Assembly (NCBI RefSeq): GCF_014202905.1
Contig: NZ_JACHHY010000009.1
Location: forward strand, 62,001-126,000
Reading direction: 5' to 3'
Length of the DNA stretch: 64,000 bases
DNA from: Chitinivorax tropicus
GTDB taxonomy: Bacteria; Pseudomonadota; Gammaproteobacteria; Burkholderiales; SCOH01
Shown: positions 1 through 4,860 of the stretch, piece after piece
Numbering within the stretch: the stretch's first letter is position 1
Layout: each line of letters starts with the position of its first letter
Program-made: the position numbers and the translations under genes
Notes under the pieces: model-generated
Databases searched by the model: none
What the model was told of the DNA's origin: nothing
What the model saw: the letters and a program-made list of their open reading frames with translations, nothing else

Positions 1-189
1 ATCGGGCAATTTGGACCACTGACTTGCCAGCAGCATGGGCTGCCGGTCACTTTCCACCTCCACCACGATATTCAACACCCCGCTCTCATGCCGGCTGGCG
101 GTCATCTCACGCAGGATGAAGCCACGATGACGGGCCACCCGCAGCAATCGCTCCAAGGCTCCGGCCCGATCCAGTACTGACAAACTCAT
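1..189 (-). CDS. ilvM: Acetolactate synthase II small (ACT) subunit, 3' end cut by window
   Basis: The regulatory subunit of acetohydroxyacid synthase binds the large subunit and acts in valine/isoleucine synthesis. Reading the minus strand from ATG at 189 gives a peptide beginning [17 protein letters not shown] and containing RVARHRGF, the pattern of E. coli IlvM (ERVLRVVRHRGF). The start overlaps the ilvG stop by 4 bp (ATGA), so the two are translationally coupled. About 63 codons are visible and the C-terminus lies beyond position 1. The short ACT form (IlvM type rather than the longer IlvH/IlvN) fits the IlvG-like partner. It is too short for ordinary ORF calling at the window edge. Confidence 0.85.
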
Positions 190-1847
190 ACGACTTCGCA
201 CGATAACGCTCCTTCCATCATATCCAGGTTTGATTTGCCTGGCGGCACCAGCGGCCAGACATTGGTTCGACGATCGATTTTGATATGCAACAACATAGGC
301 CCTGGCTCTGCCAGCAAGCACTGGAGCGCCTCGGCCTGTTCCGCTTGGGTGTGGATGCTGCGCGCGGGAATGCCAAATGCCGCAGCCACCTGAGTGAAAT
401 CCGGGTTATCGGAGAGATCCGTTTCGCTATAACGGGCATCAAAGAACAGCTCTTGCCATTGTTTCACCATGCCCAGCATGGCGTTATCGAGCAGCACGAT
501 CTTCACTGGCAGCTGATACCGCCCTATGGTGGCAAGCTCCTGCACATTCATCATGAAGCTGCCATCCCCACTCACATTGATGACAGTTCGCTCGGGAAAG
601 GCAATCTGTGCGCCAATGGCTGCTGGCAAGCCGAACCCCATGGTCCCCAGCCCGCCACTGCTCAGATGCTGACGCGGCAGATTGAACCCCATGTGCTGGG
701 CAACCCACATCTGATGCTGCCCGACATCACAGCAGACGATGGCATCGTCAGGCATGCTCTGTGACAGGGCTTGGAGGAAGGCTGGCGCATAGATGGCAGG
801 GCCTGGGGCATCATAGCGAAAGGCATATCCAGCCTTGTCCGCAAGGCATTGTGCTCGCCAGGGGTCAACCTGCAGCGGCATGCTCAACCCAGGCAACACA
901 TGATTGAAGTCATCGGTCAGCGCCACTTCCGCTTTGCGCAACTTGCCGATCTCCGCCAGATCGATATCCAGGTGGATGACACGGGCCAATGGTGCAAAGG
1001 TATCCAGCTGCCCGGTTGCGCGATCGTCAAAGCGGGCACCCACTGCAATCAGCAGATCACATTGCTGGACAGCACGATTGGCAGCCTGTGTCCCATGCAT
1101 GCCCAGCATGCCGAGATTGAGCAGATGATGATGCGGCAGGACGCCGATGCCTTTGAGGGTGCAAACTGCGGGCATCTGTGTCACATCGACAAATTCCCGC
1201 AATGCATTCACCGCCTCGGCCAGCACCACGCCACCACCGATATACAAAAGCGGACGTGCGGCCTCGGCCATCAACGCACGGGCCTGGCGTATTGCATGCT
1301 CATTCGCGGGCCTGGCGGCATGCCAAGGTCGCGGTCGATATCCTGCCGGCACCCGGCCCAGCTGGATGTCCTTCGGAATATCCACCAACACCGGCCCAGG
1401 ACGGCCACCACGAGCCAGTTCAAATGCCTCCGCCAGCACCTCGCCCAGCTCGTCAGGGGACGATACCAGGTAGGAATGCTTGACCAGTGGCAGCGTCATA
1501 CCCAGCACATCGATCTCTTGAAAAGCATCCGTGCCAATCAACGGACGAGCCACTTGCCCGACCAAGGCCACCAGCGGGACAGAATCCAACAGCGCATCAG
1601 CCAGCGCTGTCACGATATTGGTGGCGCCAGGGCCAGAGGTTGCCACGCAGACACCCACCCGACCTGATGCACGGGCATAGCCGCAAGCTGCCAACGCCGC
1701 CCCTTGCTCATGCCGGCACAGAATGTGTCGAAGTGGCGCCCCATACAGGGCATCATAAAAGGGCATGATGGCCCCGCCTGGATAGCCAAAGATCTCCTGC
1801 ACCCCTTCTTGCACCAGGGCCTGCACCATCAAATCTGCACCACGCAC
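186..1847 (-). CDS. ilvG: Acetolactate synthase II large subunit
   Basis: A thiamine-diphosphate enzyme that condenses pyruvate with pyruvate or 2-oxobutyrate, the first common step of branched-chain amino acid synthesis. Motifs in order: [16 protein letters not shown] with the HEQGAA catalytic-Glu region near the N-terminus, SGPGATN, a central FAD-associated domain, and the ThDP/Mg motif [12 protein letters not shown] near residue 440. I prefer the GTG at 1847: AAAGGAG sits 6 nt upstream, and the resulting start (M)[15 protein letters not shown] aligns with E. coli IlvG MNGAQWVVHALRAQGV. It gives 553 residues against 548 in E. coli. An upstream ATG at 1862 (MKGVSV) is the alternative. It is followed directly by ilvM and preceded by a leader peptide and attenuator. 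Confidence 0.93.
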
Positions 1848-1946
1848 GCTAACTCCTTTCATCTGGCCGCCCCTTTCCACCACGCAACCAGTGGTGGCCA
1901 ATGGCTGTCCGTATCAGCCCAGGCACGTTTCATGTCCCCAAAACGA

Positions 1947-1980
1947 CGAAGCCCCCGGACCTCTCGGTGCGGGGGCTTCG
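1947..1980 (-). terminator. Rho-independent attenuator hairpin of the ilvGM leader
   Basis: CGAAGCCCCC (1980-1971 on the minus strand) pairs perfectly with GGGGGCTTCG (1956-1947), a 10-bp stem followed by TCGTTTT. It lies between the leader peptide stop (2001) and the ilvG start (1847). That is the position of an attenuator, not an end-of-operon terminator. The leader codons after the Ile/Val run contain GGGGC (2036-2032), which can pair with GCCCC (1976-1972) of this stem as an antiterminator. Confidence 0.8.
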
Positions 1981-2000
1981 TCACATGTTTGACTGATCGG

Positions 2001-2096
2001 TTATCTCATTCGTTCAGCCAAGCAGCAACGCGCCCCGTGATGTTTAATCACGGTGCAAATAATCACGGCTATGATGCTACTGGCGGATAAACGCAT
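2001..2096 (-). CDS. ilvL: ilv operon leader peptide
   Basis: A 31-codon ORF beginning MRLSASS and ending LAERMR. Its middle reads IIAVIICTVI: five Ile and two Val in ten codons, followed by KHHGARCC. This matches the design of E. coli IlvL, where a run of Val/Ile/Leu codons precedes a Gly-Ala-rich stretch and an attenuator. A ribosome stalled at the Ile/Val codons would leave the following GGGGC free to pair with the first arm of the hairpin at 1947-1980 and so prevent termination. The start is ATG at 2096 with a weak ribosome site; an in-frame GTG at 2114 is an alternative. A promoter lies about 100 nt upstream. The call rests on composition, position and hairpin together. Confidence 0.75.
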   Translation of the reverse strand: MRLSASSIIAVIICTVIKHHGARCCLAERMR

Positions 2097-2195
2097 GGGT
2101 ATTGAAAGCGGCACAAAACATTAATTTGACGATGAGCTTACCCTGAGCAATTGGCAAATTGCAAACAATTTATTTCGCATGCGAATTAATGCGCC

Positions 2196-2225
2196 TTGAC
2201 ATTTATAACATAACGCATACATGAT
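2196..2225 (+). promoter_or_regulatory. Possible promoter of the DUF1631 gene
   Basis: A perfect TTGACA (2196-2201) is followed after 18 bp by CATGAT (2220-2225, four of six matches to TATAAT). It would give a 5' untranslated region of about 165 nt. The -35 is strong and the -10 weak, so confidence is low. Confidence 0.3.
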
Positions 2226-2229
2226 TCAA
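2202..2229 (-). promoter_or_regulatory. Putative sigma70 promoter of ilvL-ilvGM
   Basis: On the minus strand TTGAAT (2229-2224) is followed after 16 bp by TATAAA (2207-2202). The predicted start near 2195 gives about 100 nt before the leader peptide and about 350 nt before ilvG. It overlaps a plus-strand TTGACA at 2196-2201, so the two divergent genes may share this segment. Confidence 0.5.
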
Positions 2230-2397: not shown

Positions 2398-4860
2398 ATG
2401 GATCGGAATGCCTTGTTGGCGGCTACGCGTGCTGAATTCATGCATGCCTTTATAGACCCGCTGGACGCCCTCCTGCAGCAATGCTCGGATCACTTGTTCA
2501 ACAAAGCGGATATACACCCCTCACCTGTCGAACGCCGCAAGTTGATGGATGCGCGAGACATCCTGATCCGCCAGAGCAAGTCCTTGAAACAGAGCTTGAA
2601 ATCTTCGATGGAGCAGCTGATCAATCGCAGCTTCCAGACCGCCTACAGCACTTTCCGCCCGTCATTCTCCAATGTCGGCACCCTGAGCCTGTCATTGGTC
2701 GACACCAGTACCGTTGATGATGAGCTGCGGATCGACACCATCACCAAGCTGCTGCGCAACGAGGCCGAAGAGCAGCTGCGCGATCTCAATATCCGCATCG
2801 CCCTGCTGTTCGAGCAGGACAATATCAAGGAGCGGGAAAACCCGTTCCGCCCCTACCTGTTTTCCCGCTGCATCGCCAGCGCCACCGAACAGCTCGACAT
2901 TCCCCAGGACATTTCAGCCGTGCTGACGGTGCAGATGGCCGAGGCCCTGGCTGGGCGGATTGCAGACATCTATGGCGCCCTGAATGCATTGCTGGCAGGC
3001 CATGGTATTGCTGCCGAACTACAGCTCAAGATCAGACGCAGCCCGGCCAACCTGGGCAATGGCGGCGCCAGCGGCGTTGACAACGGCAATGGACACGCCG
3101 CCACGACCGACTATGCCGCCAGCCCATCACAGGTCTACCAACCCGCAATCGGCACAACAGGCAACCCCTACGCGCCCCCCCAGTCTCAGTCCCATATGGA
3201 GCCGACAGGTTATCTGACCTCCAACGAAGACCTGTTGATGCAATGGGTTCAGCAGCAGTCTGCAACCTGGGGGCTCCCCCAGCGAGAGCCCACCAGCGCA
3301 GCCACAACCAGCGCCAATAAGGGTAGCGGCTGGTTGCGAGCACCACAGCAGGTCGGCCAGGTCTTACGCAAGTTGTTCATCGGGCAAGAAGCGGCCAGCC
3401 CGACGCAACATGCGCCGATTACCCAGTCGCTGGCCCTGTCAATCGAGCAGATGACACAGACGGCGTTGAGCGCATTTGCCGATTTTGCGCAGGATGACGG
3501 CAGCGTCCGTAATCTGATGATGGAGCAACGGCAGGCGCTCAAGAACTCCACGTCGGATTTGAATCAGCAAATGATCATCGACGTGGTCGCGATGCTGTTC
3601 GAATTCATTCTGCGGGATAACCAGGTCCCCGCCGAGGTACGTGCGCAGCTGGGGCGGTTGCAGATCCTGGTTCTGAAGCATGCGCTGCAAGACCCGGCGT
3701 TGTTCAATCAGAAAAACCATCCTGCCCGCCTGCTGGTCAATCGTATCGGCTCCATCTCACTCGGTCTGAAACACATGGACCCCAGTGGCGAGCGGGTGAC
3801 CAAGGAAATCGTCCGCATCGTCGAATCGCTGCTGAGTGGTGATCACGAAGGACTCGCGCTGTTCGAGCACATGCTCGATGAGCTGGATGCCTTCATTGCC
3901 CGGGAACTACGCTCCAGCAATGTCAAAGTCGAGCGCGCAGTCAAGGTCATGGAACATGCCGTGAACCGGACGTTGCGTTTTGCGCGCATCTCAGCCGCGA
4001 TGGCCGACTCGCTTTCCACGATCACCATCGATGGCGATCTGCAGGATTTCCTGGTGAACCATTGGCCCCGCGTCATCGAGCGGGCTGAACGGGAAGACCC
4101 AGGCAAGGCAGAGCGTTACCGCTTGGTGGTGCCAGACCTGATCTGGAGCATCGCCCCCAAGACAAACGATCAGGAACGCAAGCAACTGGTGTTGTTATTG
4201 CAACCACTCTTGCACACACTGCGTGAAGGCTTGAACTTGCTTGATTGGTCGCCAGGGCAGCAACAGAATTTTCTGAACTGGCTGGCCGAATTCCATACCC
4301 GTGCCTTGCGTGCTGGCTCGGTACAGGCTGTCGTGCCGTCACTTTCACAGATCCACGAACAATTCACCCCGCTGACCCAACAACCTGCCGAGGCAGACAT
4401 GGCCAACGCCAATGGCAAGCCAGTTGAAATCGACCAGCATGTACTGAGTGATGCTTTAAGTGAAATGGAAAGCCAGCTGACCATCATCGATCAGCGCTAT
4501 GAACAATTGCTGCAAGACCCCGATCATCCATCAAGTGAGGGGCAGTCGGCGGAGGCACAAGACGAACAGCCGCTGGAAACGGATTGGAACACCCACCTGC
4601 AAAATGGTGTCATGATCGAAATCAATCTGGATGGGCACCCAGCACTGGCCCGCCTGAACTGGTTCAGCGAACATGCCCGCAGCCTGGTGCTCAGCATCGA
4701 TGACCAGAGCGAACCCGCCATGATCAGCCTACGCCTGTTCAAACGGCTGTTGCAAAATGGCCGCGCCAAGTTCCTTGAGACCGAGCCGCTATTTGAGCGG
4801 GCGATACAGTCGCTGTTGCAAACAGCGGATCAGATGGGACAGCAACCCGCCAAGACCTGA
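2398..4860 (+). CDS. DUF1631 family protein
   Basis: A large soluble, helix-rich protein of 820 residues with no signal peptide or membrane segment. Its length and layout resemble the proteobacterial DUF1631 family, whose biochemical role I cannot state. Residues about 230-320 form a Gly/Asn/Ser/Gln-rich low-complexity linker between two helical parts. The C-terminal part (residues about 725-810) contains a compact region reading EINLDGHPALARLNWFSEHARSL in short pieces, reminiscent of the PilZ-like or C-terminal conserved block of the family. The start ATG has GGGGAG about 11 nt upstream. It is transcribed alone, divergent from ilvGM and convergent with tyrA. Confidence 0.75.
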   Translation: MDRNALLAATRAEFMHAFIDPLDALLQQCSDHLFNKADIHPSPVERRKLMDARDILIRQSKSLKQSLKSSMEQLINRSFQTAYSTFRPSFSNVGTLSLSLVDTSTVDDELRIDTITKLLRNEAEEQLRDLNIRIALLFEQDNIKERENPFRPYLFSRCIASATEQLDIPQDISAVLTVQMAEALAGRIADIYGALNALLAGHGIAAELQLKIRRSPANLGNGGASGVDNGNGHAATTDYAASPSQVYQPAIGTTGNPYAPPQSQSHMEPTGYLTSNEDLLMQWVQQQSATWGLPQREPTSAATTSANKGSGWLRAPQQVGQVLRKLFIGQEAASPTQHAPITQSLALSIEQMTQTALSAFADFAQDDGSVRNLMMEQRQALKNSTSDLNQQMIIDVVAMLFEFILRDNQVPAEVRAQLGRLQILVLKHALQDPALFNQKNHPARLLVNRIGSISLGLKHMDPSGERVTKEIVRIVESLLSGDHEGLALFEHMLDELDAFIARELRSSNVKVERAVKVMEHAVNRTLRFARISAAMADSLSTITIDGDLQDFLVNHWPRVIERAEREDPGKAERYRLVVPDLIWSIAPKTNDQERKQLVLLLQPLLHTLREGLNLLDWSPGQQQNFLNWLAEFHTRALRAGSVQAVVPSLSQIHEQFTPLTQQPAEADMANANGKPVEIDQHVLSDALSEMESQLTIIDQRYEQLLQDPDHPSSEGQSAEAQDEQPLETDWNTHLQNGVMIEINLDGHPALARLNWFSEHARSLVLSIDDQSEPAMISLRLFKRLLQNGRAKFLETEPLFERAIQSLLQTADQMGQQPAKT

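Follow-up and report, generated by a model that had tools for sequence, protein, structure and literature searches.

Genes and leader upstream of ilvGM

The window analysed here is a 64-kb stretch of DNA, and all of the support described below is comparative or computed. Near one end of the window, on the minus strand, lies an ilvGM gene pair preceded by a leader element that occupies the space between ilvG and a divergent DUF1631 gene (2398-4860, plus strand). The features of this region are as follows.

1..201, minus strand: ilvM, start GTG at 201, running off the window; Pfam ACT_5; overlaps the 3' end of ilvG
186..1847, minus strand: ilvG, acetolactate synthase II large subunit; NCBIfam NF006524; GTG start at 1847, with AAGGAG
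1945..1982, minus strand: terminator hairpin, regions 3:4; stem 1982-1970 / 1957-1945, then 4 U (1943-1940); -33.9 kcal/mol
1972..2036, minus strand: antiterminator, regions 2:3; GGGGC (2036-2032) with GCCCC (1976-1972) plus an inner extension; from the stall model
2001..2096, minus strand: leader peptide ORF of 31 codons, MRLSASSIIAVIICTVIKHHGARCCLAERMR; ATG at 2096, TAA at 2003-2001; an ORF in 10/10 leaders
2035..2053, minus strand: inner protector stem, regions 1:2; CCGTGAT (2053-2047) / ATCACGG (2041-2035); from covariation
2135..2164, minus strand: likely promoter, TTGCAA (2164-2159), 18 nt, TAAGCT (2140-2135); pattern in 10/10 related leaders
2202..2229, minus strand: promoter-like TTGAAT (2229-2224), 16 nt, TATAAA (2207-2202); window only

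The product of ilvG scores 909 bits against the NCBIfam IlvG equivalog NF006524 (cut-off 738), and its start, which was set by comparison with the related genome G001, has a strong Shine-Dalgarno sequence (-8.2 kcal/mol). The ilvM product matches ACT_5 and reaches 66.4 bits against the IlvM equivalog NF008362, just below the cut-off of 68, with no other NCBIfam family matched. The presence of an ilvG above its cut-off with ilvM behind it supports the reading of the leader as an attenuator of branched-chain amino acid genes. On the same strand ilvM is followed, after about 134 nt, by a gene for a Phosphoesterase-family protein. We note that IlvG is not the sole large subunit of this genome, since separate synthase large subunits are found at 43% and 32% identity to it.

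The initial annotation had described a 31-codon ORF containing the run IIAVIICTVI upstream of ilvG, and this ORF is present as claimed. The run occupies codons 8-17 and contributes seven codons for Ile or Val, amino acids that the operon serves to produce; an in-frame GTG at 2114 would lengthen the ORF to 37 codons. Among ORFs of 15-50 codons in all six frames of the 64 kb, it is the only one found with at least seven Ile/Val in ten residues, which places it beyond chance. Codons 5-18 comprise 5 Ile, 2 Val, and 0 Leu, whereas in 44 distinct gammaproteobacterial stretches the same codons hold on average 3.5 Ile, 2.2 Leu, and 4.5 Val. Because codons 5-18 are without Leu, unlike 43 of those 44 stretches, we infer that the leader responds to Ile and Val rather than to Leu. 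No Shine-Dalgarno sequence precedes the ATG (+0.9 kcal/mol), and the ten leaders of the window's lineage are almost without one (-1.7 to +2.2 kcal/mol), compared with a median of -2.4 in 76 gammaproteobacterial leaders.

The promoter had been placed at TTGAAT-16-TATAAA. That sequence is present in the window, but it is absent within 160 nt upstream of the nine other leaders, and it is possibly a second promoter that is not conserved. The pattern that is conserved lies about 60 nt downstream, at TTGCAA-18-TAAGCT, likely the better candidate of the two on comparative grounds: the form TTGCNN-17/18-TANNNT, with its end 35-70 nt upstream of the leader ATG, occurs in 10/10 related leaders against 0.04/10 expected by shuffling, a pattern that was picked post hoc with the sequences already in view and in a set where G188 and G152 are near copies. 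A generic scan of 1500-2700 listed neither promoter, returning one promoter-like site, on the opposite strand, against 1.0 expected. From TTGCAA-18-TAAGCT, transcription would be expected to start near 2128, and the terminated RNA would then be about 185 nt long.

Predicted alternative folds of the leader RNA

The leader RNA of the window (190 nt) folds better than 200/200 shuffles (z -4.66). The terminator stem, previously given as a perfect 10-bp stem, is longer than that, with 13 perfect pairs and a further three pairs in the loop. The generic scan of 1500-2700 caught the hairpin as a 6-pair version only, among two terminator-like sites against 1.2 expected. In the predicted leader fold an outer stem, AGTAGCA/TGCTGCT, closes over the inner protector. 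The proposed pairing of GGGGC at 2036-2032 with the first arm of the terminator is possible in the sequence, the partner being GCCCC at 1976-1972.

We modelled a ribosome placed at each codon in turn, assuming that its footprint extends 16 nt, counted from the A-site codon's first base. With the ribosome stalled at codons 4-16 of the window leader, 8-10 bases of the terminator arm are paired with region 2, whereas a stall from codon 17 on leaves 0-4 pairs. In these computed folds, terminator and antiterminator are mutually exclusive, and the position of the ribosome sets which of them forms. In the nine remaining leaders the switch comes at much the same codon position, but not without deviations: region 2 is not freed by stalls at the earliest codons of G003 or at two early codons of G188 and G152, and a second patch or a single codon appears further down in G188, G152, G248, and G025.

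The antiterminator energy in the window lies below that of 200/200 shuffles of the upstream part. Counting shuffles with an antiterminator energy as low, we found 0-4/200 in the window, G278, G307, G025, G218, and G248, and 9/200 in G188 and G152; the energy is not unusual in G001 (23/200) or G003 (51/200). The fold of the window RNA up to region 3 still contains the antiterminator when no ribosome is present, so the model gives no ground to expect strong termination in the absence of translation.

Conservation of structure across ten leaders

Alignment A3 comprises the ten leaders of the lineage, all of which have an ORF of 29-32 codons at the equivalent place; its rows are related, with G188 and G152 near copies, and the structure tested was one that we defined ourselves. 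Across this alignment, the two hairpins are paired in 94.3% of their cells. Cells with a double change number 15 against 5.8 in shuffles, with 0/500 shuffles as high, and the covariation score of 0.220 exceeds that of all six slid versions (best 0.108). Three of five covariation measures lie beyond all 500 shuffles, consistent with compensatory change. Pairs with a change on both sides are weakly above shuffles (27/500 as high), and the measure of further pair types gave no signal (482/500 as high). RNAalifold on a mixed alignment recovered the terminator and not the protector. On sequence comparison, then, covariation supports both hairpins.

The inner protector is paired in 97.1% of its cells, and three of its seven pairs are changed on both sides among relatives. 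One G-C pair of the window is A-U in G307 or g24, a swap that converts a Val codon (GTG) to a Met codon (ATG); in G218, C-G replaces U-A at two pairs. Moreover, a single-nucleotide indel in the loop, at A3 column 59, puts the downstream peptide in another frame while the RNA stays alike. The protector swap and the indel together indicate stronger conservation of the RNA than of the peptide's C-terminus.

Distribution of the element

Among 60 near genomes, including the window's own, an IlvG of more than 49% identity occurs in G000, G001 (80%), and G003 (74%). In the order as a whole, IlvG of at least 65% is present in 4/399 genomes (G000, G001, G003, and G307), the next best match being 50%. 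G001, G003, and G307 each have leader and hairpin in the equivalent position before ilvG.

A covariance model, R1, was built from alignment A1 (five leaders of the window's lineage and 12 gammaproteobacterial leaders). With stricter filters, R1 matches at E<=0.001 are found in 83/399 genomes of the order, of which ten were counted as carrying the element (at least 38.8 bits): G000, G001, G003, G307, G278, G188, G152, G248, G025, and G218. This threshold marks no clean gap, as G218 (38.8) stands beside G171 (38.2) and G105 (38.0); G218 was counted because its match stands before ilvM. A profile of ilvM (alignment A2, nine rows) matches the same ten of 398 genomes at E<=5e-32, followed by five weak matches at 5e-7 or worse. 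Both models were built in part from these sequences, so that a match to their own members is expected; what carries information is the lack of any further genome with a strong ilvM match, including among the 73 uncounted R1 genomes. Each of the ten counted matches is immediately upstream of ilvG or ilvM.

We inspected four of the 73 uncounted genomes. No leader was seen at the matches in G171 and G105; the match in G277 belongs to a different, Val-rich leader, and that in G336 is a terminator, by eye adjoining 5S rRNA sequence. A search for the exact attenuator pattern gave five hits in the 399 genomes, of which the one in G329 was dropped because by eye it lies beside tRNA-like genes.

The Val-rich leader type of G277, for example MLPVVVRVVVVGVVTDTPSRIG, is followed by a GC-rich hairpin and a T-run in 8/8 loci examined by eye (L118-L125, in G277, G306, G204, G217, G335, G113, G362, and G387). 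It begins about 180-320 nt before a match to another acetolactate synthase large subunit, and seems to be an independent Val attenuator within the order.

In a survey of the class, R1 matches at E<=1e-7 in 7/303 genomes, the window's own included. Of seven further loci from this survey inspected by eye, four precede ilv genes and three do not. By eye, the matches at L189 and at L193 (leader MNILALLVIVSLVLVVVARPRGETAG) lie before synthase large-subunit genes, that at L195 (leader MQKQASLHNVIISILVVVIGKSSRGCLLQ) before ilvE, and that at L194 before ilvC.

Origin of IlvG and its leader

In a tree of 55 large subunits, 47 gammaproteobacterial IlvG fall on one side (100/100) and the four IlvG of the lineage fall outside them. 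The sample was thinned from 80 gammaproteobacterial rows to 47 and included 4/8 other synthases, and the tree is midpoint-rooted. Branches are long for G307 and the outer rows, which makes the order of the four lineage IlvG unsure. The position outside the sampled gammaproteobacterial clade argues against a recent import of IlvG from gammaproteobacteria; it may reflect an old transfer or vertical descent with numerous losses. A full attenuator where IlvG lies outside that clade implies that the switch arose, or was transferred, at an earlier date than one would gather from the enterobacterial Pfam and Rfam models.

Orphan ilvM genes with possibly rewritten leaders

In six of the ten genomes (G278, loci L138/L142; G188, L144; G152, L145; G248, L146; G025, L147; G218, L148) the R1 match ends 35-70 nt before an ilvM match, with no ilvG between. 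A search of these six genomes found no IlvG-type gene, their best large-subunit match being 42-45%, like the second large subunit of G307 (43%). G071 and G114, which are other members of the orphan-ilvM family, gave neither an R1 match nor an ilvM match. The orphan leaders read MFPVLNALTTTMKRTMMITSWGALVFARSGS (G188 and G152, near-identical in DNA), MSLQAFALTKTIKRTMMIRSWGALVLARRGS, MLLANRALTIKTKRTMMIRSWGALVHARRGQQ, MIRRPAITMIKRTATKSSRGALWCARKGS, and MTVLAVRTTTMKTTTMIKPWCGVLRGRTVK. Their codons 5-18 contain 2-3 Ile/Leu/Val, with some Ile kept, and 6-10 Thr/Met/Lys. The Ile/Val run had been expected to be conserved in related ilvGM leaders, and it holds in part: the same codons include 7 Ile/Leu/Val in both the window and G001 and 6 in G307, against just 3 in G003, with Thr/Met/Lys numbering 2, 4, 4, and 5, respectively.

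Thr, Met, Lys, and Ile make up the aspartate family of amino acids. A tentative reading, which we rate as possible and on balance rather unlikely, is that in a sister family the cassette of promoter, leader, and attenuator outlived ilvG and now controls an orphan ilvM, its sensing codons rewritten such that it reads aspartate-family amino acids and sets the dose of ilvM, the window leader being intermediate. The rewritten leader would have exchanged Ile/Val/Leu for mostly Thr/Met/Lys and some Ile while its RNA stems were kept by compensation, and the attenuator would adjust how much of a spare ACT-domain small subunit is available to the remaining synthase. Alternatively, Thr/Met/Lys may be enriched because ANN codons are maintained by constraints on the RNA and not on the amino acids. 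G003 has ilvG and yet few Ile/Val codons, so that recoding is not strictly tied to loss of ilvG, and this makes a change of signal less likely. The relatives nevertheless form a natural series in which the anatomy of the RNA is constant and the amino acid sensed seemingly changes, and how attenuators change signal is thereby open to direct testing by leader swaps on one reporter.

Proposed mechanism and alternative explanations

Taken together, conservation, compensatory changes, and stall-dependent folding support the original suggestion of an ilvL-like leader with a translation-coupled attenuator before ilvGM, and ilvGM is very probably controlled by ribosome-mediated transcription attenuation of the ilvL type. 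RNA polymerase would start near 2128. With charged Ile- (and Val-) tRNA available, the ribosome presumed to translate the ORF would pass codons 8-17 to the stop codon and mask region 2; the 13-bp terminator would then form and polymerase would halt near 1940. With Ile or Val in short supply, the ribosome would stall on IIAVIICTVI and the 1:2 protector would open, leaving GGGGCGCG free to pair with the first arm of the terminator, and transcription would read into ilvGM. Points against this reading are the lack of a Shine-Dalgarno sequence, the tract of only four U, the antiterminator that forms even with no ribosome, its unremarkable energy in G001 and G003, the two covariation measures that do not stand out, the Ile/Val run that is mostly gone in G003, and the score below the gathering threshold of Rfam RF02744.

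The missing Shine-Dalgarno sequence and the short U-tract would also fit a decaying relative of the gammaproteobacterial ilvL, by now a fixed partial terminator or plain 5' UTR that does no real sensing, as would the drop in Ile/Leu/Val in the best ten residues from 8-10 in 76 gammaproteobacterial leaders to 7 in the window, 6 in G001, 5 in G307, and 4 in G003. Decay of this kind sits poorly with protector and terminator stems kept by compensatory changes, with an open ORF in all ten leaders, and with a window leader that retains seven Ile/Val in ten as the sole such ORF found in 64 kb, and we consider it improbable. Compensatory conservation of paired bases in the transcribed leader likewise speaks against a dominant control at the promoter by an Lrp-type regulator, with the hairpin minor. 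Such control has a precedent, in that Lrp acts on the ilvG and ilvIH promoters of E. coli according to the available text of PMC6123439, and the promoter pattern is itself conserved in the related leaders; we nonetheless hold it to be very improbable. Lastly, the terminated leader RNA of about 185 nt might be a trans-acting small RNA. Rfam lists the homologous 5' UTR of enterobacteria as RF02744 Rev39_5p_UTR, and the name Rev39 occurs in the available text of a Pectobacterium small-RNA paper (PMC4710047), but the 10/10 counted matches directly before ilvG or ilvM fit a role in cis, and we regard this as the least probable of the three alternatives.

Comparison with known attenuators

The leader RNA of the window aligns with Shewanella, Rheinheimera, and enterobacterial leaders, with a terminator core near-identical in 17 aligned leaders, and judging by this alignment the window element is a homologue of the ilvL attenuator of gammaproteobacteria. 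Among the 80 gammaproteobacterial ilvG loci listed, 76 have an upstream ORF with at least eight Ile/Leu/Val in ten residues (5 with 8, 51 with 9, and 20 with 10), the four others being L011, L039, L041, and L067. In E. coli, ilvL attenuation uses a leader of 32 amino acids with 15 branched-chain residues, as given in the accessible part of PMC6123439; the window leader has 31 amino acids, stands likewise before ilvG, and has nine such residues. It shares with enterobacterial leaders the GGGGC of region 2 and a CCCCCGCACCGA-AGGTCCGGGGG terminator core as in the aligned Pantoea and Yersinia loci, and differs in having no Leu in codons 5-18, a longer stem with just 4 U, no Shine-Dalgarno sequence, and ilvEDA not adjoining ilvGM.

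The IlvG of Shewanella, Rheinheimera, and Aeromonas are 59-65% identical to that of the window among the matches listed. Their loci have a leader such as MFKQAAQLIIVIITVVIIKSQRG.., a GTGATTA..ATCAC protector, and the same terminator core, but differ in having 8-10/10 Ile/Leu/Val and often also a longer U-tract. The available text of PMC2659441 lists an ilvG leader and attenuator for Shewanella.

The initial annotation had warned that the leader peptide is easily missed, and existing models would indeed pass over the element, because it falls below the thresholds of both Rfam and Pfam. It scores 24.2 bits against RF02744 (gathering threshold 88), the same as a Shewanella leader, and the Aeromonas locus L013 has no RF02744 match at E<=0.01. 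Pfam PF08046 (IlvGEDA_leader) matches a Pectobacterium leader and neither the window leader nor a Shewanella leader. We observed that RF02744, labelled as a 5' UTR of soft-rot Enterobacteriaceae, is the enterobacterial ilvG leader: its match ends 15 bases before ilvG in Pectobacterium (7.4e-118), and it also matches Pantoea (2.1e-49; matched loci L034, 5686-5985, and L054, 3904-4211).

The available text of PMC2965389, PMC2659441, PMC6123439, PMC4833913, and PMC1183508 contains no report that we could find of such a leader from any betaproteobacterium, nor of an attenuator ahead of an orphan ilvM; this set does not include the principal comparative study (Vitreschak et al. 2004). The window leader belongs to a kind of switch that is already known, and the orphan-ilvM relatives are the surprising part. 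Attenuators of the thrL type have a Thr/Ile-rich sensing stretch. The orphan-ilvM leaders, a candidate new variant, resemble them in such a stretch and differ in the gene controlled and in RNA sequence.
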